From Lentimicrobium sp. (GTDB lineage Bacteria > Bacteroidota > Bacteroidia > Bacteroidales > Lentimicrobiaceae), in NCBI GenBank assembly GCA_024709105.1, contig JANJXJ010000136.1, positions 1 to 34,960 on the forward strand: 34,960 nucleotides of DNA. The letters run 5' to 3'. Made by a program: the position numbers and the translations under genes. Below the pieces are notes generated by a model. That model made no database searches. It saw only the letters and a list, made by a program, of their open reading frames with translations, and was not told the DNA's origin. Positions 16,041 through 33,873 of this stretch are shown one piece after another; within the stretch, counting starts at the first letter, position 1; every line of letters begins with the position of its first letter.

Positions 16041-17135
16041 TTAGTCACCAAAGCAAATGCCAACACCGCGGGCAGTTTTCATGAGTGCGGTATCGGGGTC
16101 AACCAGATTTGGTTTTTGAATGGCTTCTTTCAGGGTAACTGAAGTGATGTAGGGATGTCTGTATGAAACCATACGTCCGAACTCACCGGCCAGCACCAGT
16201 TCAAAAGCTTTAACACCATATTGGGTAGCCAGCACGCGGTCGTAAGCAATGGGAATGCCTCCCCTTTGCAGGTGTCCGAGAACGGTGGTACGAATGCTGT
16301 GCTCGCAGCCGGCAGATTTAAGTTCCTCTTCAAGACGGAAACCAACACCTCCCAACCTTACATTTGCGTAACCTACTTCCTCGTTTTTGCCGGTAACTTT
16401 ATTGCCTTTGATATTTCTGGCACCTTCAGCTACTACAACATTTACAAAACCACGTCCTTTGTCGAAACGCTGTTCAACACGCTCCATCACCTTATCAATG
16501 TCGTATGGAATTTCGGGAAGCAGACAAATTTCAGCACCTCCGGCAACGGCAGCGTTCAGGGCAATCCATCCGGCATCGCGGCCCATAACTTCAAGAATCT
16601 GAACGCGGTTGTGGCTTGCAGCTGTAGTTACCAGTTTATCAACAGCATCGGTAGCAATCTGAATGGCAGTTTGAAAACCAAAGGTAGCGTCAGTTGCAGA
16701 CAGATCGTTATCAATGGTTTTGGGAACTCCGATAATGTTTAATCCTTTTTCGAACAATGCCTGTGAGATTCGCTGAGAACCATCACCACCAATGTTGATC
16801 ACTGCATCAATACCCAGGTATTGAATCTTTCTGATCATTTCGTCGGAGCGGTCAACGGCGATAAAGGAACCATCTTTCTGTTTTACAGGCCATGCAAATG
16901 GGCCTCCGCGATTGGTGGTTTGTATGATGGTTCCTCCCTGGTAGTGGATTCCGGAAACAGCCTTTTCATCCAGAACAACCAGTTCGGTAGGTTCACGCAA
17001 AATACCATTAAATGCCTCTATACTTCCAACAACTTCCCAGTTTTTTTCGCGGGAGGCTCGCTTTACAATTGCGCGTATTACCGCGTTAAGTCCCGGACAG
17101 TCGCCTCCTCCGGTAAGTACCATTACTCTGTTCAT
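16041..17135 (-). CDS. pfkA: 6-phosphofructokinase
   Basis: Phosphorylates fructose-6-phosphate at C1, the committing step of glycolysis. 364 residues, the length of the group III (mixed-substrate) family rather than the ~320 of E. coli PfkA. The nucleotide loop TGGGDCPGLNAVIRA begins at residue 8. At the donor-selecting site the sequence is GGDGS (116-120), with Gly119 as in ATP enzymes, whereas PKTIDND (138-144) has Lys139 where ATP enzymes of the E. coli type have Gly and PPi enzymes have Lys. ATP is the more likely donor. The catalytic Asp is D142. Divergent from mgsA, sharing a 174-bp promoter region. Confidence 0.92.
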   Translation of the reverse strand: MNRVMVLTGGGDCPGLNAVIRAIVKRASREKNWEVVGSIEAFNGILREPTELVVLDEKAVSGIHYQGGTIIQTTNRGGPFAWPVKQKDGSFIAVDRSDEMIRKIQYLGIDAVINIGGDGSQRISQALFEKGLNIIGVPKTIDNDLSATDATFGFQTAIQIATDAVDKLVTTAASHNRVQILEVMGRDAGWIALNAAVAGGAEICLLPEIPYDIDKVMERVEQRFDKGRGFVNVVVAEGARNIKGNKVTGKNEEVGYANVRLGGVGFRLEEELKSAGCEHSIRTTVLGHLQRGGIPIAYDRVLATQYGVKAFELVLAGEFGRMVSYRHPYITSVTLKEAIQKPNLVDPDTALMKTARGVGICFGD

Positions 17136-17309: not shown

Positions 17310-17780
17310 ATGGAAAGAAAAAAAAGAATTGCGCTGGTTGCTCACGACAACCGCAAACAGGACCTGATTGAATGGGTTGAATACAATGCCTTAAAACTCA
17401 GGGAACACAAGATAATTTGTACCGGTACCACCGGCAAACTCATAGAACAGCAATTACAGGCAAGTCTGGATGCAGATCAGTTCAGCAAATTTGAAGTAAA
17501 GAAGCTCAAATCAGGCCCTTTGGGCGGCGATCAGCAATTGGGTGCCTTGATTGTTGAAGGCGAGATTGATCTGATGATTTTTTTCTGGGACCCCATGCAA
17601 CCTCAGCCGCATGATGTTGACGTAAAAGCACTGCTCAGAATTACAGTGCTTTACAATGTTCCTACCGCCTGCAACCGGGCAACTGCCGATTTTATGATCT
17701 CTTCACATCTTTTTAATGAAGAGTATCATCAAAAAATTAAAGATTATTCTACTTATATCAACCGCGAAGTTAAAATGTAA
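17310..17780 (+). CDS. mgsA: Methylglyoxal synthase
   Basis: Removes phosphate from dihydroxyacetone phosphate to give methylglyoxal, a bypass that relieves phosphosugar build-up. 156 residues, the usual size. Family blocks are complete: IALVAHDNRK at 7-16, TGTTG near 39-43 (phosphate binding), SGPLGGDQQ with the catalytic D74, and PHDVDVKALLR with H101. The stop codon overlaps the next start (TAATG at 17778-17782), so it is translationally coupled to the HAD gene. It diverges from pfkA, an arrangement consistent with control of triose-phosphate flow. Confidence 0.96.
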   Translation: MERKKRIALVAHDNRKQDLIEWVEYNALKLREHKIICTGTTGKLIEQQLQASLDADQFSKFEVKKLKSGPLGGDQQLGALIVEGEIDLMIFFWDPMQPQPHDVDVKALLRITVLYNVPTACNRATADFMISSHLFNEEYHQKIKDYSTYINREVKM

Positions 17781-18442
17781 TGGCATCAGATTTTGCTGTA
17801 ATTTTTGATATGGATGGCGTTTTGGTTGACAACTTCCGCTACCATTTGCTGGCCTGGGAAAAATTTTGTGAACGCCACAAAAAAAGCATTTCAGCCGACG
17901 ATTTCCTGGAACATGTTTTTGGTGGTTCCAATGCCGACCATCTGAACTTTATCTTCAAAAAACAACTCCCCGAAGAGGTTATCATAAGTCATTCAGCCGA
18001 AAAAGAACTGATATACAGATATTTATATCAGGACAATGTGCAGCTTCTTCCCGGCTTGCGCGAGCTGCTGGTTCAGCTTAAAGCAAGGGAAATTCCTGTT
18101 GCCATTGCCACCTCAGCCGAAAGAGCCAACGTTGATTTTATACTTTCACAAACCGGAACAGAAGATTATTTTCAGGCCATAGCCGATGCTTCCATGGTAA
18201 GTCGTGGAAAACCCGACCCTCAGGTATTTCTTAAAGCCGCTGAATTGCTTAATATTGCACCCGAAAAATGTCTGGTTTTTGAAGACACCCTGAAAGGCAT
18301 TGATGCAGCCCTGAAAGCCTGTATGAAAGTGGTGGGTGTGGCAACCACACATCACAAAGCCGAACTTACTGAAGCCCACCAGGTAATCACTGATTTTACT
18401 GAGATTACCGCCGATGAGATTATTAACATTTTAAAACAATAA
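17780..18442 (+). CDS. HAD hydrolase of the beta-phosphoglucomutase/phosphatase group
   Basis: 220 residues with all four HAD motifs: FDMDGVLVD (nucleophile D10, acid/base D12), the motif II serine in IATSA, the motif III lysine in GKPDP and motif IV FEDT. A helical cap between motifs I and II includes YHLLAWEKF, similar to the cap-entry His of beta-phosphoglucomutase. It could be a mutase or a sugar-phosphate phosphatase; the sequence does not decide. Coupled by TAATG to mgsA and followed 18 bp later by a peptidase gene. Confidence 0.85.
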   Translation: MASDFAVIFDMDGVLVDNFRYHLLAWEKFCERHKKSISADDFLEHVFGGSNADHLNFIFKKQLPEEVIISHSAEKELIYRYLYQDNVQLLPGLRELLVQLKAREIPVAIATSAERANVDFILSQTGTEDYFQAIADASMVSRGKPDPQVFLKAAELLNIAPEKCLVFEDTLKGIDAALKACMKVVGVATTHHKAELTEAHQVITDFTEITADEIINILKQ

Positions 18443-23736: not shown

Positions 23737-26700
23737 ATGACAAAGAATTTATTTGATGCCGTAATATTTGACCTCGATGGCGTAATTACCAAAACAGCAC
23801 TGGTACACAGTACAGCCTGGAAGAAAATGTTTGATGATTTTCTTAAGGATTATGAAAACAGGCAAGGCCTTCCGTTCCGCGAATTTACCCATACCGGCGA
23901 TTATCTGCCCTATGTTGATGGCAAACCCCGATACAAGGGAGTTCAGGATTTTCTGAATTCAAGAGGCATTGAACTTCCCTTTGGCGACCCTTCCGATTCT
24001 TACGAAATGGAAACCGTGTGCGGATTGGGCAACCGCAAGGATTTTGCCTTTAACGAAATTCTGAAACGCGACGGAGTTGGCGTATACGAAAGCACCGTTG
24101 CTCTGATTCATGAACTTAAAGAACTGGGAATCAGGGTAGGAGTAGCCTCCTCGAGCAAAAACTGCGCTCCGGTTCTGGAAGCTGCAGGCTTGCTGCATTT
24201 GTTCGAAACCCGGGTGGATGGAGTAGTATCTGCCGAAATGAAACTGAAAGGCAAACCCGAACCCGATATCTTTACTACAGCCGCTTCTAATCTGGGTGTA
24301 CATATTGATAAAACAGTAATTGTTGAAGATGCCGTTTCAGGCGTACAGGCAGGCAGAAAAGGCGACTTTGGATTGGTAATAGGCATTGCCCGTGAAGAAA
24401 ATAAAAAAGAGCTGCTGCTCAATGGTGCCGATTTTGTTGTGGAAGATCTGGAAGAAACCAGCATTCAGGGCATCAACGAGTGGTTTTCAAAAGGGCTTGA
24501 AGAAGACAAATGGTCCATTACCTACCATGAATATGAGCCCAAAAAAGAGCGTACCCGCGAAGCTCTGCTGGCCATAGGAAACGGTTATTTCGGAACCCGC
24601 GGTGCTGTTGAAGAGACTGACAGCACACCCACCAATAACCCCGGTACCTATATTGCAGGATTATACAACCGCTTAGCCTCCAAAGTTGGCGACAGAATGG
24701 TTGAAAATGAGGATTTTGTTAATATTCCCAACTGGTTGCCGGTTACCTTCCGTATTGATGGCGGTGAGTGGTTCGACTTTAACCAGGCTGAGTTACTCGA
24801 TTTCAGCAAACAACTCGATTTCCGCACCGGAATTTTCAGCAGGCGAATTGTAGTAAAAGACAAGGCCGGCAAAATCACTGAAATTGTGTCGAAAAGGGTG
24901 GCCGGCATGAAGAATCCGCACCTGGCAGCTCTGCAGTATCAGCTTACCCCGGTGAATTACAGCGGACTGATTACCATCAAAAGCGGAATCAACGGCGATA
25001 TCATCAACGATAATGTTGAAAGATACAAACAGCTGAATCAGCAGCATCTTGCACCTGTTTCGCAGGATATGGAAGGAAATATGTTATGGGTAGAGGTAAA
25101 AACCACCCAATCAGAGATAATCATTGCCGAAGCCGCCCGCCACACTTTGTATGTGGATGGTAAAGCTGCTGATTACGAATTACATGCGGAGTTGTCATCC
25201 GCAAAAGCTTATCAGTTGTTCGAAACTGAGTCGCTGGCCGGAATACCAGTAACCCTTGAAAAATGTGTGGCCATTTTCACTTCCAAACCCGACGATGTGC
25301 AGCATCCGCTTCAGGAAGCCAGAAACGCTGCTTATGCACACCCCGGTTTTGAGTCGCTTTGTAAGGAAAGCAAGCTGGAATGGGACTGGATATGGCAAAA
25401 AACTGATGTTCAGGTAACCGGCAGCCGCATGGATCAGAAATTGCTGAGGCTGCATATTTATCATCTTATTGTTTCGGCCTCACATCACAATGCCGGCATT
25501 GACGCCAGTTTTACCGCCCGCGGACTGCACGGCGAAGCTTACCGCGGCCATATTTTCTGGGATGAGCTCTTTATTCTGCCCTTCTACAACATGCAGTTTC
25601 CTGATGCAGCCAAAGCCACGCTGATGTACCGCTACAACCGGCTGAACAAAGCCCGCGAATACGCTGCTGAATACGGATTTACCGGAGCCATGTTCCCCTG
25701 GCAGAGTGGCAGCGACGGCCGCGAAGAAACCCAGGTGGTTCACCTGAATCCGCTCTCGGGCGAGTGGGGAGATGACTACAGCTCACTGCAGCGCCATGTT
25801 TCACTGGCCATTGCCTACAACGTTTGGGAGTACTATCACGCAACCGGCGACCTTGATTTTCTTAAAAATTACGGTGCTGAGATGTTTCTCGATATCTGCA
25901 GATTCTGGGCAGGAAAAGCGAAGATTAACCCCGAAACCGGACGTTACAGCATTTCAGGTGTAATGGGTCCCGATGAGTTTCATGAGCAGTATCACGGCTC
26001 CACCGAAGGCGGGCTGCGCGACAATGCCTATTCCAATATTATGGTGGTGTGGGCCATTGACAAGGCATTTGATATACTCAGCCTGCTCGGCAATTCGGCT
26101 GCAGAGGTTAAAAATAAGCTCAAACTCAGCGATGAAGAGCTGGCTGAGTGGAAAACCATATCCAGGAAACTGAATATTGTAATTTCGGAGGATGGAATTA
26201 TTTCGCAATACGATGGCTATTTTGATCTGGCCGAATTAGACTGGGATCATTACCGCACAAAATACGGCAATATTTACCGGCTCGACAGAATCCTGAAAGC
26301 TGAAGGCAAATCGGCCGATGAATACAAAGTGGCCAAACAGGCCGATACACTCATGGCATTCTACAATCTCGACGATGCCGAAGTGCGCGGGATACTTGAG
26401 GAGCTGGGTTATTCGGTAAAGGATTCCTATCTGAAAGACAATCTGGAATACTATCTCGCACGCACTTCACATGGTTCCACCCTCAGCCGCGTGGTACATG
26501 CCCTGCTTGCCAACATGATCGGCGACCGCGAACTCAGCTGGGAGCTTTATCAGGATGCCCTGAGCAGCGACTACAATGATATACAGGGAGGCACCACTGC
26601 CGAAGGAATTCATATGGGTGTGATGGCCAGCACCATAATTATCGCCATGCACGCCTTTGCCGGTCTTAATCTTCGTGGAAACGAAATCAGAATCAATCCC

Positions 26701-26889
26701 AATCTGCCTGAAAAATGGAGATCGGTGAAATTTGGTTTTGAATTCCGCAGACAAAGGTTCAGCCTTTCGGTGGATGAAAAAAATGTGACATTTGCTTCAG
26801 ATGCAACCAATTCACAACCCGAAAAGGTGGTGATCTCTGGCCGCACCTTCGAAATAAAACCCGGAGAGGTTGTTAAAACCGATTTTTAA
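23737..26889 (+). CDS. Fused beta-phosphoglucomutase and GH65 disaccharide phosphorylase
   Basis: 1050 residues in one chain. Residues 1-250 are a HAD mutase: FDLDGV with D12 and D14, the cap block YVDGKPRYKGVQDFLNSRGI (59-78), S139 in ASSSK, K173 in GKPEP and E197/D198 in VEDAVSG. Residues about 258-1050 are a glycoside hydrolase family 65 phosphorylase: a beta-sandwich N-domain, then an (alpha/alpha)6 barrel with HIFWDELF, the general acid E747 in GPDEFH, the KQADTL block and the QGGTTAEGIHMGV phosphate-binding segment. It would split an alpha-linked glucose disaccharide with phosphate into glucose and beta-glucose-1-phosphate, then isomerise the latter to glucose-6-phosphate. The disaccharide (maltose, kojibiose, trehalose or nigerose) cannot be read off. 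It heads a run with two kinase-like genes, the first 24 bp downstream. Confidence 0.9.
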   Translation: MTKNLFDAVIFDLDGVITKTALVHSTAWKKMFDDFLKDYENRQGLPFREFTHTGDYLPYVDGKPRYKGVQDFLNSRGIELPFGDPSDSYEMETVCGLGNRKDFAFNEILKRDGVGVYESTVALIHELKELGIRVGVASSSKNCAPVLEAAGLLHLFETRVDGVVSAEMKLKGKPEPDIFTTAASNLGVHIDKTVIVEDAVSGVQAGRKGDFGLVIGIAREENKKELLLNGADFVVEDLEETSIQGINEWFSKGLEEDKWSITYHEYEPKKERTREALLAIGNGYFGTRGAVEETDSTPTNNPGTYIAGLYNRLASKVGDRMVENEDFVNIPNWLPVTFRIDGGEWFDFNQAELLDFSKQLDFRTGIFSRRIVVKDKAGKITEIVSKRVAGMKNPHLAALQYQLTPVNYSGLITIKSGINGDIINDNVERYKQLNQQHLAPVSQDMEGNMLWVEVKTTQSEIIIAEAARHTLYVDGKAADYELHAELSSAKAYQLFETESLAGIPVTLEKCVAIFTSKPDDVQHPLQEARNAAYAHPGFESLCKESKLEWDWIWQKTDVQVTGSRMDQKLLRLHIYHLIVSASHHNAGIDASFTARGLHGEAYRGHIFWDELFILPFYNMQFPDAAKATLMYRYNRLNKAREYAAEYGFTGAMFPWQSGSDGREETQVVHLNPLSGEWGDDYSSLQRHVSLAIAYNVWEYYHATGDLDFLKNYGAEMFLDICRFWAGKAKINPETGRYSISGVMGPDEFHEQYHGSTEGGLRDNAYSNIMVVWAIDKAFDILSLLGNSAAEVKNKLKLSDEELAEWKTISRKLNIVISEDGIISQYDGYFDLAELDWDHYRTKYGNIYRLDRILKAEGKSADEYKVAKQADTLMAFYNLDDAEVRGILEELGYSVKDSYLKDNLEYYLARTSHGSTLSRVVHALLANMIGDRELSWELYQDALSSDYNDIQGGTTAEGIHMGVMASTIIIAMHAFAGLNLRGNEIRINPNLPEKWRSVKFGFEFRRQRFSLSVDEKNVTFASDATNSQPEKVVISGRTFEIKPGEVVKTDF

Positions 26890-26913: not shown

Positions 26914-27552
26914 ATGCTGAATAACTGGCTCTTACTTTCTAAAAAGCACGAAGGTGCTGCGCAAACCATTTTTGAAAAATATCTTTCAGAACGGAGGGGC
27001 AAATACATCATTACCATCTCCGGCGAAGTGGAAACCGGAAAGTGTGAAGTTGCCCATGCCCTCGGAAAACTGATGAAAAAGGAAGGAATCATGGCAAAAT
27101 TGCTCCATATGGACAATTATTACAAGATTCCACCGCTCGAAAGAACCGAATGGCGCAAGCGAAACGGAATTGAAAGTGTGGGTTACGATGAATACGACTG
27201 GGAAGTAATCAACCGCTCGCTCGCGGGTTTCAGGGATGGCAAACTGACTACCTTGCCCTGTGTTGATCTCTTTACCGGACAAATTGACCAGCTCACCACC
27301 AACTTTGCCGGAATCGAAGTGCTGATAGTGGAAGGGCTGTATTCAGTTAAAATTGAAGAAGCCAATCTGAAGGTCTTTATCGAACTCACTTACAAAGACA
27401 CCATGGATGTGCAAAAGGCATCGGGCAAGGAAGAGCTGGATGAGTTCAGGATGCAGATTCTTGAACGGGAACACAAAGTGGTTCAGTCGCTTAAACCGCT
27501 GGCCGATTTTTACCTCGATTTTGATACCGCCAACGAAATTTTTCACTTCTGA
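26914..27552 (+). CDS. Uridine-kinase-like P-loop protein with degenerate Walker A (paralogue 1)
   Basis: 212 residues, aligned without gaps over most of its length to the next gene. The P-loop reads GEVETGKC (37-44): glycines and lysine are kept but the final Ser/Thr that binds magnesium is Cys44, and the usual glycine-serine pair is replaced by Val-Glu-Thr. The DNYY block (67-70) and the EYDWE segment, shared with uridine kinases and phosphoribulokinases, are intact, and IVEGLY marks the Walker B strand. The C-terminus (after residue 195) differs from paralogue 2. It may be a weak kinase, a regulatory partner of paralogue 2 or a binder. Cytoplasmic. Confidence 0.75.
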   Translation: MLNNWLLLSKKHEGAAQTIFEKYLSERRGKYIITISGEVETGKCEVAHALGKLMKKEGIMAKLLHMDNYYKIPPLERTEWRKRNGIESVGYDEYDWEVINRSLAGFRDGKLTTLPCVDLFTGQIDQLTTNFAGIEVLIVEGLYSVKIEEANLKVFIELTYKDTMDVQKASGKEELDEFRMQILEREHKVVQSLKPLADFYLDFDTANEIFHF

Positions 27553-27582
27553 GTAAACCAACCATCAATAAATCAAACCACC

Positions 27583-28221
27583 ATGTTAGGAGACGTACTG
27601 TTAATCGGCGAAAAGCATGAAAATGCCGCCAGGGAAATACTCCCTCATATTCTGAAAAACAGAAAAGACAAATTTATGATCGCCATTTCGGGCGAATCCG
27701 GATCAGGCAAAACCGAATTGTCGCATGTAATTGCAAAAATGCTCAGGAAAGAGGGTATTTTCTGCAAACCCATTCATATTGACAATTATTACCGCATTCA
27801 TCCGCTGGAGCGCACCGAATGGAGAAAAACTCACGGCATTGAAACCGCTGTCGGCCTTGGCGAATACGACTGGGACACCATCTACAGAAATATTTCAGAT
27901 TTTAAGAATGGCCGCGAGTCAACCATGCCCTGCATTGATCTGGTTACCGAACAGGTAGATCATCTCACCACCGACTTCAGTACCGTGGATATGATTATCA
28001 TTGACGGACTTTATGCCATAAATACCGAAGATGTGGATCTGAAAATCTTTATTGAGCTCACTTACCACGAAACCAAAAAAGCCCAGGTAGTTCGCGGCAA
28101 GGAACCCCAGAACGAATACCGCATGCAGGTGCTCGAGCGCGAACATCAGGTGGTGCAGTCGCTCAGGGACAAAGCCGATATTTTTATCAACAAGGAATAT
28201 CAGGTAGTTCCTGCCCGTTAA
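27583..28221 (+). CDS. Uridine-kinase-like P-loop kinase (paralogue 2)
   Basis: 212 residues with a canonical P-loop GESGSGKT (37-44), DNYYRI at 67-72, LERTEW (75-80) and IIDGLYA at Walker B. Overall it belongs to the uridine kinase/phosphoribulokinase superfamily. Standard Udk proteins have other conserved uridine-binding segments that I do not recognise here, so the substrate may not be a nucleoside. In an operon with a GH65 phosphorylase it could phosphorylate the glucose released, but this is inference. It lies 30 bp after paralogue 1 and is followed by a terminator. Confidence 0.8.
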   Translation: MLGDVLLIGEKHENAAREILPHILKNRKDKFMIAISGESGSGKTELSHVIAKMLRKEGIFCKPIHIDNYYRIHPLERTEWRKTHGIETAVGLGEYDWDTIYRNISDFKNGRESTMPCIDLVTEQVDHLTTDFSTVDMIIIDGLYAINTEDVDLKIFIELTYHETKKAQVVRGKEPQNEYRMQVLEREHQVVQSLRDKADIFINKEYQVVPAR

Positions 28222-28393: not shown

Positions 28394-28681
28394 ATGAAAA
28401 GACCAAGAAGAACATTTAGTGCTGAATTCAAGGCCAAAGTGGCTATTGAAGCGATCAAAGAGTTAAAAACGACCCCTGAACTGGCTCAGATTTATCAGGT
28501 CCACCCCACCCTTATCGGACTTTGGAAGAAGGAGTTTCAACGGAATGCCGCAAAAGTTTTTGATAGTGGTAAAGACGAGGCTGAACAGTTAAGAAAGCTT
28601 CAAAAGGAAAAAGAAGAACTTATCCAGCAGATTGGTCAATTGACTGTGGATAATAACTGGTTAAAAAAAAAGGTTCTATGA
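28394..28681 (+). CDS. IS3-family transposase OrfA
   Basis: 95 residues: an N-terminal helix-turn-helix of the IS3/IS911 type (FSAEFKAKVAIEAIKE, then LIGLWKKEF) that binds the IS ends, and a leucine-zipper-like tail (about 65-92). Near its 3' end the slippery heptamer A AAA AAG (28666-28672) is in the right frame for a -1 ribosomal shift into orfB, giving the OrfAB transposase. Its stop codon overlaps the orfB start. Confidence 0.93.
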   Translation: MKRPRRTFSAEFKAKVAIEAIKELKTTPELAQIYQVHPTLIGLWKKEFQRNAAKVFDSGKDEAEQLRKLQKEKEELIQQIGQLTVDNNWLKKKVL

Positions 28682-29520
28682 TTCCATTGGACATACGCAG
28701 GGAATTAATAGAAGCTGGCGATAACCAGATGAGTATCTCAAAGCAATGCGAATTGTTAAGCGTAGCGCGCAGTACACTGTATTATACTCCCTCAAAAGCT
28801 TCAGGCAAGGATCTGGAGATCATGCAGGAGCTTGACATGCTTTACCTGGAAGACCCAACCCGTGGAACCCGCAGAATGACCAAAGAACTCAGGAAGTTGG
28901 GGTACACAATTGGTCGCTATCATGTCCGAAGTTTAATGCGAGTTATGCGCTTGAAAACGGTTTATTGCCTGCCACGTACAACAATATCAGACCCGACTAA
29001 GTACAAATATCCATATCTGTTGCGCAATTTAAAGATTACCCGACCCAACCAGGTATGGTCTTTGGATATCAGCTATATCCCTATGCCCAAGGGGTTTATG
29101 TACTTGGTGGCAATCATGGATGTTTACAGTCGGTTTATAGTAGGCTGGAGCCTGTCCAACACCATGGAAGCTGAATGGGTTGTAAATACTTTAAACGCAT
29201 CAATCGCTCAATATGGCAAGCCTGAGATTATCAATTCCGATCAAGGTGGCCAGTTTACTTCAGACGAATATGTGAATTTCGTAAAAAGCCTTGAAACGGT
29301 AAAAATATCAATGGATGGTAAAGGAAGGGCAATAGACAATGTTTATATTGAACGTTTCTTCCGAACCATAAAATATGATAAGATTTACCTGGAGCGACCA
29401 GAAACCGGAAATGAACTGTATACGGTTTGTAAACAGTTTATCAACTACTATAACGAAAGACGGGATCATTCTTCTATCGGGGATGTGCCGCCAAATAAGG
29501 CTTACAGGAGGGTTGCATGA
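28678..29520 (+). CDS. IS3-family transposase OrfB (DDE integrase domain)
   Basis: 280 residues. An N-terminal HTH_21-like segment with the RGTRRMTKELRKLGY block (62-76) precedes the rve integrase core. Catalytic residues are D130 (WSLDISY), D188 (NSDQGGQF) and E225 (YIERFF), followed by the usual basic R229/K232. By my count 36 residues separate the last D and E, one more than the typical 35. The frame is complete and could be active. It is read through the -1 shift in orfA or from its own ATG at 28678. Confidence 0.95.
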   Translation: MIPLDIRRELIEAGDNQMSISKQCELLSVARSTLYYTPSKASGKDLEIMQELDMLYLEDPTRGTRRMTKELRKLGYTIGRYHVRSLMRVMRLKTVYCLPRTTISDPTKYKYPYLLRNLKITRPNQVWSLDISYIPMPKGFMYLVAIMDVYSRFIVGWSLSNTMEAEWVVNTLNASIAQYGKPEIINSDQGGQFTSDEYVNFVKSLETVKISMDGKGRAIDNVYIERFFRTIKYDKIYLERPETGNELYTVCKQFINYYNERRDHSSIGDVPPNKAYRRVA

Positions 29521-29695: not shown

Positions 29696-30985
29696 ATGCC
29701 CAAAAGAAAAGATATGCCTGTTTCATGGAGTAAGAATCTTAGTATTTACGAAGTAAATCTGCGACAATACACTGCAGAAGGTACCATTGCTGCATTCAGG
29801 GAACATTTGCCCAGGCTTAAAGAACTCGGAGCCGGAATTCTTTACTTTATGCCGCTGCATCCCATCGGACAAAAGAATAAAAAAGGCGGGCTCGGAAGCT
29901 ATTACAGTGTAAGTGATTATTTCTCAGTTCATCCCGATTACGGAACCATTGACGAATTCAGAGACCTCGTAACCGAAATCCATGGCCTTGGGATGTATGT
30001 GATAACGGACTGGGTTGCCAATCATACCTCCTGGGACAATCCTTTGCTTGCAGAACATCCTGAATTTTACTCAAAGGACAGACATGGCAACTTCAGGTCG
30101 CCGCACCCGGAGTGGAGCGATGTGGTGGATCTTGATTATAACAACCATGCACTCAGGGAGTTTATGATTCATGCCATGAAATTCTGGATTGAAAAAACCG
30201 GAATTGATGGCTTCCGCTGCGACATGGCCAAAATGGTACCACTAGATTTCTGGCAGGAAGCCAGGGCAGAACTTGAAACCATAAAGCCGCTGTTTATGCT
30301 GGCTGAAGCCGATCAGCATGACCTGCTCAACGGTGCCTTTGATGTTTTGTACAACTGGAATTTATACCATGTAATGAACAGCATTGCCCGGGAGGAATCC
30401 TCGGTGTGGAACCTGAATGGCATGATAAACAGCGAAGTACTTGATTTTCCTGCCAGGGGTTATCAGATGCTGTTTATCAGCAACCACGATGAAAATTCGT
30501 GGAATGGCTCCGAACTGGAAAGGCTGCATCATGGCCTGGAAGCTTTTACTGTGCTCTATTTTACCCTCACAGGAATACCACTGATTTACAGCGGACAGGA
30601 AGCCGGAAATCCCAAAAGGCTGCGCTTTTTCGAAAAAGATGAAATTGAGTGGAAAGAGGACAAAATGTTCACACTTCTGCAACAGCTTATTCAGCTGAAA
30701 AAACGGAACATGGCGCTGTGGAACGGCCCCTATGGCGGAGGTTTTACACGAATCTCCACCCGCAACGACGGCAACATCATGGCATTTATGCGCGAACTGG
30801 CCGGAAACAAAGTGGTGGCAATTCTCAACCTGAGCTCATACGAACAGTTTGCCCATCTCTCGGCCGGGAATCTGCCGGGATACTACACCAATGTTTTTAC
30901 AGGCGAAAAGACTGAGCTCTTTGATAATCACTATTGTAAGCTCAATCCCTGGGAATACAGATTGCTGGAATACAACGCGGGTTAA
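29696..30985 (+). CDS. Cytoplasmic alpha-amylase family (GH13) enzyme
   Basis: 429 residues, no signal peptide. GH13 motifs: region I DWVANH (105-110), region II GFRCDM with nucleophile D176, region III LAEAD with general acid E204 and region IV SNHDEN with D265. The short C-terminal beta domain starts near 365. It acts on alpha-1,4-glucans or short maltooligosaccharides; hydrolysis versus transfer cannot be separated by sequence. An in-frame Met7 is an alternative start. Its last bases overlap the end of convergent malQ: the sequence TTAA contains both stop codons. Confidence 0.9.
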   Translation: MPKRKDMPVSWSKNLSIYEVNLRQYTAEGTIAAFREHLPRLKELGAGILYFMPLHPIGQKNKKGGLGSYYSVSDYFSVHPDYGTIDEFRDLVTEIHGLGMYVITDWVANHTSWDNPLLAEHPEFYSKDRHGNFRSPHPEWSDVVDLDYNNHALREFMIHAMKFWIEKTGIDGFRCDMAKMVPLDFWQEARAELETIKPLFMLAEADQHDLLNGAFDVLYNWNLYHVMNSIAREESSVWNLNGMINSEVLDFPARGYQMLFISNHDENSWNGSELERLHHGLEAFTVLYFTLTGIPLIYSGQEAGNPKRLRFFEKDEIEWKEDKMFTLLQQLIQLKKRNMALWNGPYGGGFTRISTRNDGNIMAFMRELAGNKVVAILNLSSYEQFAHLSAGNLPGYYTNVFTGEKTELFDNHYCKLNPWEYRLLEYNAG

Positions 30986-32472
30986 ATCCTGTTGTATAAT
31001 TTACTCATTTCCAGCATTTTTTCGGCGTGTTCCGCCTGAATCTGCCCTTCGGTAAACCTCCATTGCCAGTTGTTGACCAGGGTGCCGGGTACATTCATTC
31101 TGGCTCTGCTGCCGAGGCCAAGCACATCCTGCAAAGGAATTACCGCAATGCGCGATACCGATGCCCAGGCCAGCCTGATCATATCCCAGTGTATTTCGTA
31201 ACCATTGGCTGCTGAATATTTGTGCAGTTTCAGTTTGTCGTCGCTGTCGAGGCTTTCGTACCAGCCCACCACCGTGTCGTTGTCGTGGGTGCCGGTGTAC
31301 ACTACGGAATTGGAATCGTAAAAATGTGGCAGATAGGGATTGGCTTCACTTTTATCGAAGGCAAACTGCAGAATTTTCATTCCCGGAAGGTGAAACTGCT
31401 CGCGCACCGCATCCACATCGGGAGTGATCACCCCAAGGTCTTCGGCAATGATGGGAAGTTTTCCGAGTTTCTGATTGATGGCTTCGAAGAGTTCCACAGC
31501 CGGAGCTTCGATCCAGTCGCCGTCTTTGGCGGTTTTTGCTCCGAAAGGCACCGCCCAGAAAGCCACCAAACCTCTGAAATGGTCAATCCTGATGATATCT
31601 GCCAGCTCCAGATTGTGGCTGATGCGTTTGATCCACCAGTCGAAACCTGTTTGTTTCAGATAATCCCACTTGAAAAGCACATTGCCCCACAATTGTCCGT
31701 CTTCGCTGAAAAAATCGGGAGGAACACCAGCCACAAACTCGGGATCGAGGTTTTCGTCGAGCATAAACACTTCGGGACTTGCCCATGCATCGCTGCTGTC
31801 GAAGGAAACATACAGCGGAATATCGCCGACTACCTGTATTTTTTTGCTGTTGGCATATTCCTTGAGCGCCATCCACTGGCAGTTGGCCACAAACTGCAAA
31901 AACCTGTGATAGGCAGCCCTTTCGGCCAGCTCTTCACGGTATTTCTCCAGTACTTCTGCCTTTCTCAGCTTAATGTCATCAGGCCATTCGTACCAGGGCA
32001 ATCCGCCAAGGTTTTCTTTAATGGACATAAACAGGGCGTAATCGCTGAGCCAGTGCTGGTGTTTCTGCTCAAAACTCTGCAGGGCAGCCCGGTCGGTTTC
32101 GGGAGCCAGCGCGGCAAATGCCCTGAAGGCCTTCACAAATATATTTTCCCTTGAACCATTCACAAATGCATAATCCACTCTGCCTGAGTTGGTTTGTCTG
32201 GCTTCGTTCAGGTCGCTTTTGCCAATCAGCCCTTTGTTTACAAAGTGATTCAGGTCAATCAGCATGGGATTGAGCGCATAGGCCGAATAACTTTGATATG
32301 GCGAATCGCCCGGCCCGGTGGGTCCCAGCGGTAGCACCTGCCAGAGGTTCTGACCTGCACTTTCAAGAAAATCAATAAATTTATAAGCTTCGGGGCCAAA
32401 AGTTCCTATTCCGAATTCGTTGGGCAATGAGGTGGGATGCAACAATATGCCTCCGCTGCGGCTTTCTGTCAT
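30982..32472 (-). CDS. malQ: 4-alpha-glucanotransferase (amylomaltase, GH77)
   Basis: 496 residues, the usual size for bacterial MalQ. Transfers alpha-1,4-glucan segments between maltooligosaccharides, releasing glucose. N-terminal RSGGILLHPTSLP and SPYQSYSAYALNPMLIDL blocks, nucleophile D297 in RIDHFR, acid/base E344 in AEDLG and D397 in GTHDND are all present and equally spaced relative to the Thermus enzyme (293, 340, 395). Transcribed on the minus strand 48 bp after the MFS gene, so the two form an operon. A 310-residue antisense frame within it is not credible. Confidence 0.95.
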   Translation of the reverse strand: MTESRSGGILLHPTSLPNEFGIGTFGPEAYKFIDFLESAGQNLWQVLPLGPTGPGDSPYQSYSAYALNPMLIDLNHFVNKGLIGKSDLNEARQTNSGRVDYAFVNGSRENIFVKAFRAFAALAPETDRAALQSFEQKHQHWLSDYALFMSIKENLGGLPWYEWPDDIKLRKAEVLEKYREELAERAAYHRFLQFVANCQWMALKEYANSKKIQVVGDIPLYVSFDSSDAWASPEVFMLDENLDPEFVAGVPPDFFSEDGQLWGNVLFKWDYLKQTGFDWWIKRISHNLELADIIRIDHFRGLVAFWAVPFGAKTAKDGDWIEAPAVELFEAINQKLGKLPIIAEDLGVITPDVDAVREQFHLPGMKILQFAFDKSEANPYLPHFYDSNSVVYTGTHDNDTVVGWYESLDSDDKLKLHKYSAANGYEIHWDMIRLAWASVSRIAVIPLQDVLGLGSRARMNVPGTLVNNWQWRFTEGQIQAEHAEKMLEMSKLYNRI

Positions 32473-32520: not shown

Positions 32521-33873
32521 TTATTTTGCAACCACATCGTCCTTGTCACTTACAAAATAAACCGAAACAGCTCCGATGATCAGCAGAAGGCCTGCTGTGA
32601 AGATGGCGTAAACTGCATGTCCGTGATAGAAATGTTTTACAATCGGTCCGCCGAAAATTCCGTTTACTATTTGCGGAAAAGTGATAAAAAAGTTAAAAAT
32701 GCCCATATACACTCCCATTTTTTTGGCTGGGATTGAACCGGCCAGAATGGCGTAAGGCATTGCCAGAATACTTGCCCAGGCTATACCTACACCTACCATG
32801 CTGAGGTTGAGCAGCCATTTCATTTCGGGTGAGGTAATTAAAATAATGGACATCAGTCCTATGCCGCCAATGCCCAGACAAATGGCATGGGTCATTTTGC
32901 GGCCAACCTTTAAGGCAATGTAGGGGAGGAGCAGCGCAAATACTGCGGCTACGGCATTGTAAACTCCAAAAATTACACCCACATAATTTCCTGCTTCATT
33001 GTATGCTTCGGAACTGCGGTCGGTGGCCGGAAGTCCCCACACATGCTGCGCCAGAGCCGGCGTAGTAAATACCCACATGGAGAACAGTGCAAACCACGAG
33101 AAAAACTGAACCAATCCCAGCTGTTTCATGGTTTTGGGCATGTTGGCAAAGTCTTTGAAAATGTCGAAAATGCTGGCGGTTTTTTCCTCTGTGGCATGTT
33201 CTTCCTCGTCAAATGAGGCCAGTTCTTCGGGCGAATACTCTTTGGTGGTGAAGACTGTAAGCAGAATGGAGCCTACCAGCACGGTGGCGCCAACAAAGAA
33301 TGAAAGTATCAGATACACGGGTACACTGCCTTCGCTGGCTTCGGATGAAACTCCGAACCAGTTGGCCAGCACATAAGGCAGCCATGAGCCAACCACAGCG
33401 CCCACACCAATAAGTGCGGTTTGTATTGAAAAACCAAGTGTGCGCTGATCGCTGGGCAGTTTGTCGGCTACCAGTGCCCTGAAAGGTTCCATGGCCACAT
33501 TGAACGAGGCATCCATAATCATAAGCATACCGGCACCTACGTAAAGGGCGGGGAGAAAGGCTGCAAATTCAGGAGAGTTGGGCATCAGAATCAATCCGAT
33601 GGCTGCCATAACTGCTCCGGCCAGGAAATAGGGTTTTCTGCGGCCAAAACGGTTCCAGGTGTTGTCGCTGTAATGTCCGATGATGGGCTGAACAATCATT
33701 CCGGTAACGGGAGCCACCAGCCAGAACCAGGATAGATGTTCCACTTCGGCTCCGAAGGTTTGCAAAATACGGCTGGCATTGGCATTTTGCAGCGCAAAAC
33801 CCATCTGAACTCCCAGAAAGCCAAAACTCATATTAAAAATTTGCCAGAAACTCAGGCGCGGTTTTCTTTTCAT
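32521..33873 (-). CDS. MFS sugar transporter (SLC45/GPH-like)
   Basis: 450 residues with about 12 hydrophobic segments. The N-terminal LSFWQIFNMSFGFLGVQ start and the WFWLVAPVTGMIVQPIIG segment, followed by GRRKPYF in the first cytoplasmic loop, are typical of the SLC45-type maltose/sucrose transporters found in Bacteroidota. An acidic central loop (about 210-235) separates two six-helix halves. It probably imports maltose or related oligosaccharides across the inner membrane for MalQ, the GH13 enzyme and the GH65 fusion. First gene of a two-gene operon; only a weak TAATTTTA box is seen upstream (33904-33897). Confidence 0.88.
   Translation of the reverse strand: MKRKPRLSFWQIFNMSFGFLGVQMGFALQNANASRILQTFGAEVEHLSWFWLVAPVTGMIVQPIIGHYSDNTWNRFGRRKPYFLAGAVMAAIGLILMPNSPEFAAFLPALYVGAGMLMIMDASFNVAMEPFRALVADKLPSDQRTLGFSIQTALIGVGAVVGSWLPYVLANWFGVSSEASEGSVPVYLILSFFVGATVLVGSILLTVFTTKEYSPEELASFDEEEHATEEKTASIFDIFKDFANMPKTMKQLGLVQFFSWFALFSMWVFTTPALAQHVWGLPATDRSSEAYNEAGNYVGVIFGVYNAVAAVFALLLPYIALKVGRKMTHAICLGIGGIGLMSIILITSPEMKWLLNLSMVGVGIAWASILAMPYAILAGSIPAKKMGVYMGIFNFFITFPQIVNGIFGGPIVKHFYHGHAVYAIFTAGLLLIIGAVSVYFVSDKDDVVAK

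Follow-up and report, generated by a model that had tools for sequence, protein, structure and literature searches.

Lactococcus obtains trehalose 6-phosphate (T6P) through the phosphotransferase system (PTS). In the pathway described for Lactococcus lactis, T6P is split by phosphorolysis into beta-glucose 1-phosphate and glucose 6-phosphate (G6P), followed by the action of beta-phosphoglucomutase (PMC8950772, PMC4336185). A second described system is the Caldithrix abyssi GH65 enzyme CaGP (subgroup 22), which makes T6P from beta-glucose 1-phosphate and G6P and carries DQGQDE at the six GH65 specificity positions defined by De Beul et al., where maltose phosphorylases carry KV[MF]NES; no kinase is mentioned in the main text of that paper (PMC8537180). 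The third is AgaSK of Ruminococcus gnavus, in which the kinase domain is fused to an alpha-galactosidase. The isolated 212-residue kinase domain (RgSK) phosphorylates sucrose, reportedly on its glucose side, whereas RgSPP wants the fructose side; as described there, the kinase domain was modelled on uridine kinase and a crystal structure is cited for the galactosidase part only (PMC7688924). Sucrose-6F-phosphate phosphorylases, for which two motifs, KXXYYQ and GFDVHQ, have been given (PMC7178133), tend to share a cluster with a kinase (PMC6521584, PMC7178133). An ATP-dependent trehalose kinase is drawn in the figure legend of one review (PMC4336185) and has been postulated for yeast by authors who state that none has been reported (PMC5613340). 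In the open-access literature, outside which most subscription journals lie, the term "trehalose kinase" was found only in these two papers and no described gene was found, and the accessible text of papers on sucrose, disaccharide, trehalose or maltose kinases with T6P phosphorylase names no such kinase. The same literature yielded nothing joining uridine kinase to maltose phosphorylase in Bacteroidetes, a uridine kinase-like protein to sucrose phosphorylase, the uridine kinase family to glucokinase and fructokinase, or Lentimicrobium to glucokinase.

The window analyzed here, a stretch of 34,960 nucleotides, is the entire contig C1 of a 4.47 Mb draft genome of Lentimicrobium sp., and its two kinase-like genes, P1 and P2, lie directly behind a gene encoding a beta-phosphoglucomutase (betaPGM)-GH65 fusion (Table 1). 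The first-pass annotation had described tandem 212-residue paralogues with one intact and one altered P-loop (residues 37-44 of P1, ending in Cys44) and DNYY in both, and the coordinates and translations bear this out, with all three genes on the same strand and gaps of 24 bases between the fusion and P1 and 30 bases between P1 and P2. Open reading frames were called mechanically in six frames. By P2, the nearest named relatives are Bacteroidales metagenome assemblies, two of which are called Lentimicrobium sp. (L109, L110).

Table 1. Features of the P1-P2 locus, with positions in the window.
Feature	Position	Strand	Description
betaPGM (HAD)-GH65 fusion	23737..26889	+	1050 aa; predicted T6P phosphorylase + beta-phosphoglucomutase
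P1	26914..27552	+	212 aa, GEVETGKC; pseudokinase-like paralogue
P2	27583..28221	+	212 aa, GESGSGKT; predicted active P-loop sugar kinase, probable ATP:trehalose 6-kinase
Insertion-sequence genes	28394..29520	+	HTH_Tnp_1 gene and second, transposase-like ORF
GH13 alpha-amylase-like enzyme	29696..30985	+	429 aa
GH77 4-alpha-glucanotransferase	30982..32472	-	PF02446, 591 bits
MFS transporter	32521..33873	-	PF07690

From the observed fold, residue patterns, gene order and co-occurrence we infer a substrate for each enzyme, a contact between P1 and P2 and the inactivity of P1. We consider it reasonably probable that P2 phosphorylates a disaccharide with ATP, trehalose 6-kinase being the likeliest activity, and so feeds the fusion, with P1 as its non-catalytic partner. 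In the proposed route, maltose derived from maltodextrin would be converted to trehalose by a TreS-like enzyme, and P2 would use ATP to phosphorylate trehalose, giving T6P. Phosphorolysis of T6P by the GH65 half of the fusion would then yield beta-glucose 1-phosphate plus G6P, and the beta-glucose 1-phosphate would be converted to G6P by the betaPGM half. The net yield would be two G6P for one ATP and one phosphate, with no glucokinase or PTS taking part. P1 and P2 would form a mixed oligomer in which P1 is a non-catalytic, regulatory or stabilising subunit. The phosphorolytic and mutase steps would be those of L. lactis, but the kinase proposed here is a soluble one and the betaPGM and the phosphorylase are parts of one protein. 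Within this proposal, the evidence is stronger for a disaccharide kinase than for trehalose in place of maltose as its substrate. If true, it would explain how T6P reaches T6P phosphorylase in bacteria without a trehalose PTS and how the genus manages without RokA, it would assign likely functions to genes that occur in 23/119 sampled families of the order, and it would add a bacterial metabolic pseudokinase with a clear partner. We offer more tentatively, as a possibility, that an obligate kinase-pseudokinase trehalose 6-kinase is the key step of a PTS- and glucokinase-free route from starch to G6P in many uncultured Bacteroidales, the pseudokinase sensing trehalose, T6P or the ATP state.

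The prediction for the fusion comes from its specificity residues. The protein contains the Pfam GH65 N, central and C domains together with a HAD domain, and it scores 149 bits against the beta-phosphoglucomutase subfamily model, slightly below the cut-off of 153. Among solved structures its GH65 part is nearest to 9lb6 (546 bits), whose deposited name is trehalose-6-phosphate hydrolase; kojibiose phosphorylase 3wiq follows with 350 bits and maltose phosphorylase 1h54 with 201. When mapped via the 3wiq alignment, the residues at CsKP positions 64, 392, 394, 402, 416, and 585 are D326, Q656, G658, Q666, D680, and E856. This is the DQGQDE of T6P phosphorylase (EC 2.4.1.216); it does not match the KV[MF]NES expected of maltose phosphorylase (EC 2.4.1.8), an assignment that we rejected. 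The likeness to CaGP is one of motif. The GH65 half should hence be a T6P phosphorylase with beta-glucose 1-phosphate and G6P as products, a prediction that rests on six residues and on the one tested enzyme of exact motif named in the text of PMC8537180. Given these products, the better substrate for P2 would be the disaccharide before it is cleaved. The first-pass annotation had supposed that the kinase receives free glucose set free by phosphorolysis, which the predicted products do not support; its proposal that a kinase and pseudokinase pair tied to the GH65 fusion is a new pathway component is retained as likely. In a survey of 111 fusions drawn from two overlapping sets (seven long non-GH65 reading frames having been removed from 118), 100 carry DQGQDE, 6 carry DQAQDE, including the P2-linked L054, the remaining 5 being partial or single variants. 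Five sister betaPGM-GH65 fusions without P2 (L190, L192, L193, L195, L196) are 43-47% identical to the one in the window; four have DQAQDE and one DQGQDS, and all adjoin genes for T6P phosphatase, GT20 T6P synthase or TreT, which is another hint that the substrate of the fusion is T6P. These sister enzymes possibly serve trehalose synthesis or turnover from G6P.

The association of P2 with the fusion extends well beyond the window. We sampled 149 genomes, namely this one and its relatives, 19 of them from the genus and the rest across 118 other families of the order. A search with P2 at E 1e-10 gave a match in 49/149 genomes, and 42/149 have the P2 locus, counting as positive one whose contig ends inside P1 (G016) and one with a broken P2 (G008). 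The fusion, scored at an identity of at least 43%, occurs in 42/42 genomes with P2 and in 8/107 without (G049, G057, G068, G093, G112, G119, G120, G131); in three of the eight (G093, G112, G131) the contig ends inside the fusion or within 300 bases after it. Gene order was read in two sets that share genomes and are not independent, set A with 41 loci (from 60 stretches around P2 matches) and set B with 80 named loci. In 35/41 and 68/80 loci, respectively, the fusion precedes P2 on the same strand by no more than 1.5 kb, so that the pair does not lie mostly away from GH65. Among the exceptions, five start within 250 bases of a contig edge, four have the fusion farther along the stretch, and the rest have room for a fusion and none in it (e.g., L066, L076, L136, L156, L159, L172, L176, L181).

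A gene for the first step of the proposed route follows the same distribution. The protein encoded at L161 has trehalose synthases as its nearest solved structures, and such a gene is present in 19/19 genus genomes, the genome of the window having its own on a separate contig (G000:C199). That protein scores 448 bits on TIGR02456 (treS_nterm), by far its best family, against a cut-off of 678, and three such proteins scanned gave 437-454 bits; because these scores are under the cut-off we use the label "TreS-like". The gene is found in 36/42 genomes with P2 versus 5/107 without, a count based on 44 matching genomes from which three weaker ones, all without P2 (G049, G057, G135), were excluded and which is otherwise 8/107. 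The association holds outside the genus (18/24 versus 4/106) and by family (19/23 versus 3/96, Fisher p 2.5e-15), and the P2 genomes that have no TreS-like gene are G024, G031, G055, G064, G141, and G147. A TreS-like gene, taken as a match of more than 400 bits to the L161 protein, precedes the fusion by no more than 1.5 kb in 10 set A loci and 33 set B loci. In a phylum-wide survey with a P2 profile, 29/395 genomes matched: this genome, 25 of one family (f135) in another class, and 3 weak matches. Of the 25, 16 were tested, and 16/16 have a GH65 of the fusion type (43-47% identical) as well as a TreS-like match. The TreS-like frames are 1108-1147 residues long, perhaps a TreS joined to another domain, and none is close to P2; P2 and the fusion are likewise on different contigs or more than 180 kb apart, and the fusions checked have DQAQDE in 4/4.

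Both kinase-like proteins belong to PF00485 (PRK/uridine kinase), with scores of 43.9 bits for P2 and 31.6 for P1 against a gathering cut-off of 22. The first-pass annotation had named a true uridine kinase as the identity that would overturn its proposal, and this we rule out: on the Udk equivalog model (TIGR00235) P2 reaches 54.6 bits and P1 42.4 against a cut-off of 220.3, and a different gene of the same genome (G000:C146) passes it with 261.3. The model of P2 (pLDDT 92.5) has a PanK/UCK2-type fold and the AlphaFold2 model of P1 (pLDDT 87.7) a uridine-kinase fold, both by Foldseek. P2 aligns structurally with pantothenate kinase, uridine-cytidine kinase and the putative fructose-transport kinase 3c8u (VIA-align Z 15.6-19.2, rmsd 2.3-3.9, 167-204 residues), at an identity of just 13-20%. 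Sequence searches of the PDB with P2, a P2 profile and a cousin returned UCK, PRK and other P-loop proteins and no sucrose kinase.

A link to disaccharide kinases came from a tblastn search of plasmid records with P2. Only one of four matches lies under an annotated gene (E 1e-6, 84% of P2). It falls in the C-terminal part of an alpha-galactosidase of Agathobacter rectalis, with gtfA as the next gene, and by BLASTP this AgaSK-type kinase is related to P2 at E 2e-14 over 192 columns, though with only 24% identity, which weakens the link. Homology to a sucrose-kinase-like protein hence covers the whole kinase domain, via the A. rectalis relative and not RgSK itself. The two share the DNY motif and an arginine that aligns with Arg171 of P2, and in the A. 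rectalis gtfA the strict motif of sucrose-6F-phosphate phosphorylases is present as KNIYYQ. P2 and the SK domain of AgaSK, as the latter is described, also have in common a length of about 212 residues and a phosphorylase for a 6-phosphorylated disaccharide alongside. AgaSK differs in its fusion to alpha-galactosidase and in acting on sucrose, not the trehalose proposed for P2, and at the A. rectalis locus no twin gene is annotated beside the kinase, unlike P1 and P2. The reported mismatch between the glucose side phosphorylated by RgSK and the fructose side wanted by RgSPP complicates the use of AgaSK as a precedent. A cousin kinase in our own genome (L092, G000:C12:34783-35400) precedes a sucrose-phosphorylase-family enzyme (TIGR03852, 505 bits) with the motif GFDVHQ, so that with KNIYYQ in A. 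rectalis there are two members of the kinase family next to phosphorylases whose motifs call for a 6-phosphorylated disaccharide.

The alternative that survives best, which we nevertheless regard as unlikely, is that P2 is a glucokinase of uridine-kinase fold that replaces RokA, phosphorylating glucose from phosphorolysis or from the amylase, with P1 as a modulator. The 19 genus genomes gave no match to a RokA-, Glk- (PF02685) or Hexokinase_1-type glucokinase, the three types searched for. The ROK proteins that matched in these genomes share 27-32% identity with RokA, with frames, where listed, of 406-441 residues and one of 309, and the ROK protein read in our own genome carries a MarR-type DNA-binding part. 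RokA, counted by hand in 94 genomes with G047 partial, is absent from 28/42 P2-locus genomes versus 27/107 others (p 4e-6). A missing glucokinase fits a route without free glucose and equally P2 as the glucokinase; however, RokA is retained in 14/42 P2-locus genomes, and the association falls short of significance once the genus is left out (lacking in 10/24 versus 26/106, p 0.13; by family p 0.12). Cousin kinases L228, L229, and L230 adjoin GH100 invertase-like genes of 381-398 residues and may be hexose or sucrose kinases; such neighbours would release free hexoses, which speaks for a glucokinase and against the disaccharide-kinase theme. We place the glucokinase idea lower because the GH65 motif is of T6P type, predicting G6P and not glucose as product, and because it is the genus that accounts for the RokA anticorrelation.

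Maltose is a possible substrate of P2, and the scheme in which maltose or another alpha-glucobiose receives a phosphate at C6 from P2 and the phosphorylated disaccharide then serves as substrate for GH65 seems to us improbable. It can be likened to the maltose-6'-phosphate route of Enterococcus, AgaSK offers a precedent for a disaccharide kinase, and the amylase, GH77 and MFS genes adjoining the pair are maltodextrin genes, which counts against trehalose. The exact T6P motif of GH65 argues the other way, as do the T6P synthase, T6P phosphatase or TreT genes beside the five sister fusions without P2 and the strong association with the TreS-like gene, which would be needless were maltose used directly. 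The GH13 enzyme may supply short alpha-glucans. In the genus loci read, the GH77 gene adjoins the pair in 13/17 and an MFS homologue is present in 14/17.

The predicted role of P1 depends on which residues its clade has lost. P1 and P2 are 50% identical over 203 residues (E 1e-81), and in a tree of 167 distinct kinase sequences, 48 are of P1 type and 104 of P2 type (supports 0.958 and 0.844), with 15 distant cousins as a non-monophyletic outgroup. In the P2 clade K43, S/T44, D67, D141, R171, K173, and E174 are each kept with at most one exception among readable rows. In P1, Val replaces Ser39 in 47/48 and Arg171 is absent from 47/47 readable sequences. This arginine, which by analogy with the family would be the LID arginine that handles phosphates, is kept in P2 (103/103 readable), the distant cousins (15/15) and the AgaSK-type kinase. 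Outside the genus residue 141 of P1 is Asn in 22/30 and acidic in 0/30, and inside it is Glu in 15/17 readable. At residue 44, the 18 distinct P1 of the genus have 13 Cys, 2 Ala, and 3 Ser, a loss of Ser/Thr in 15/18, and the 30 elsewhere have 27 Ser, 1 Thr, 1 Cys, and 1 Ala. The Cys44 highlighted in the first-pass annotation is thus a real change but one of this genus; what marks P1 across its clade is the loss of Arg171 and, in sequences from outside the genus, also the lack of an acidic residue 141.

P1 has been maintained in spite of this clade-wide loss. It is 63-86% identical to its genus orthologues, and its median dN/dS is 0.047 (17/78 pairs computable) compared with 0.024 for P2 (8/36), dS being saturated in most pairs; pairs with dS below 1.5 give 0.027-0.029 for P1 (n=3) and 0.022 for P2 (n=1). 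The order fusion-P1-P2 is found in 18/41 loci of set A and 37/80 of set B, and together with the low dN/dS it disfavours a randomly decaying copy. Since residues needed for phosphoryl transfer are lost in a manner conserved in the clade, as expected of a pseudokinase, P1 is probably a non-catalytic partner of P2. Lactobacillus deoxynucleoside kinases form a heterodimer of two working kinases, and it could be imagined that P1 and P2 are likewise both active on different substrates or nucleotides, as the low dN/dS, the retention of K43 (48/48) and D67 (46/48) and the Ser44 of most P1 outside the genus would allow, but the losses of Arg171, of an acidic residue 141 outside the genus and of Ser/Thr44 within it make this very doubtful.

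Several minor observations concern these loci and their neighbours. P1-type genes L077, L078, and L079 lie away from P2 and the fusion; two adjoin amylase-like genes, and the P-loop of L079 is GENRTGKA. At L050 (G008:C166), in a genus member, P2 seems to be disrupted close to its N-terminal part, either through mutation or through an error of assembly, and P1 is open. In the window the PF01527 (HTH_Tnp_1) match spans 28394-28681, and the second ORF of the insertion, known from reading alone, presumably resembles an IS3-type transposase; the insertion sequence is probably a later arrival outside the pathway. It separates P2 from the amylase gene, and in the relative L042 these two genes are 477 bases apart. 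Upstream, a methylglyoxal synthase gene and, next to it, a second beta-phosphoglucomutase-family HAD gene face a phosphofructokinase gene (17310-18442 and 16041-17135), and some other genus loci also have parts of this group on their upstream side (e.g., L037, L110). The L092 locus, a probable PTS-free sucrose kinase route, also has a TonB-dependent receptor, an MFS gene and a LacI-like gene; at related cousin loci the phosphorylase motif is GFDVHQ (L091, L093) or GFDIHQ (L090), and in L094 the sequence ends before the site. Eight further cousin loci (L080-L086, L088), from a different branch of the kinase family, adjoin a sucrose-phosphate-synthase/MshA-like GT4 gene, four of which were scanned and the others alike by sequence; the GT4 proteins score below the cut-off of every family shown (best 25 bits, cut-offs 31-40). 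Near these GT4-linked cousins are a PrmC gene (L083) and an XdhC gene (L080).
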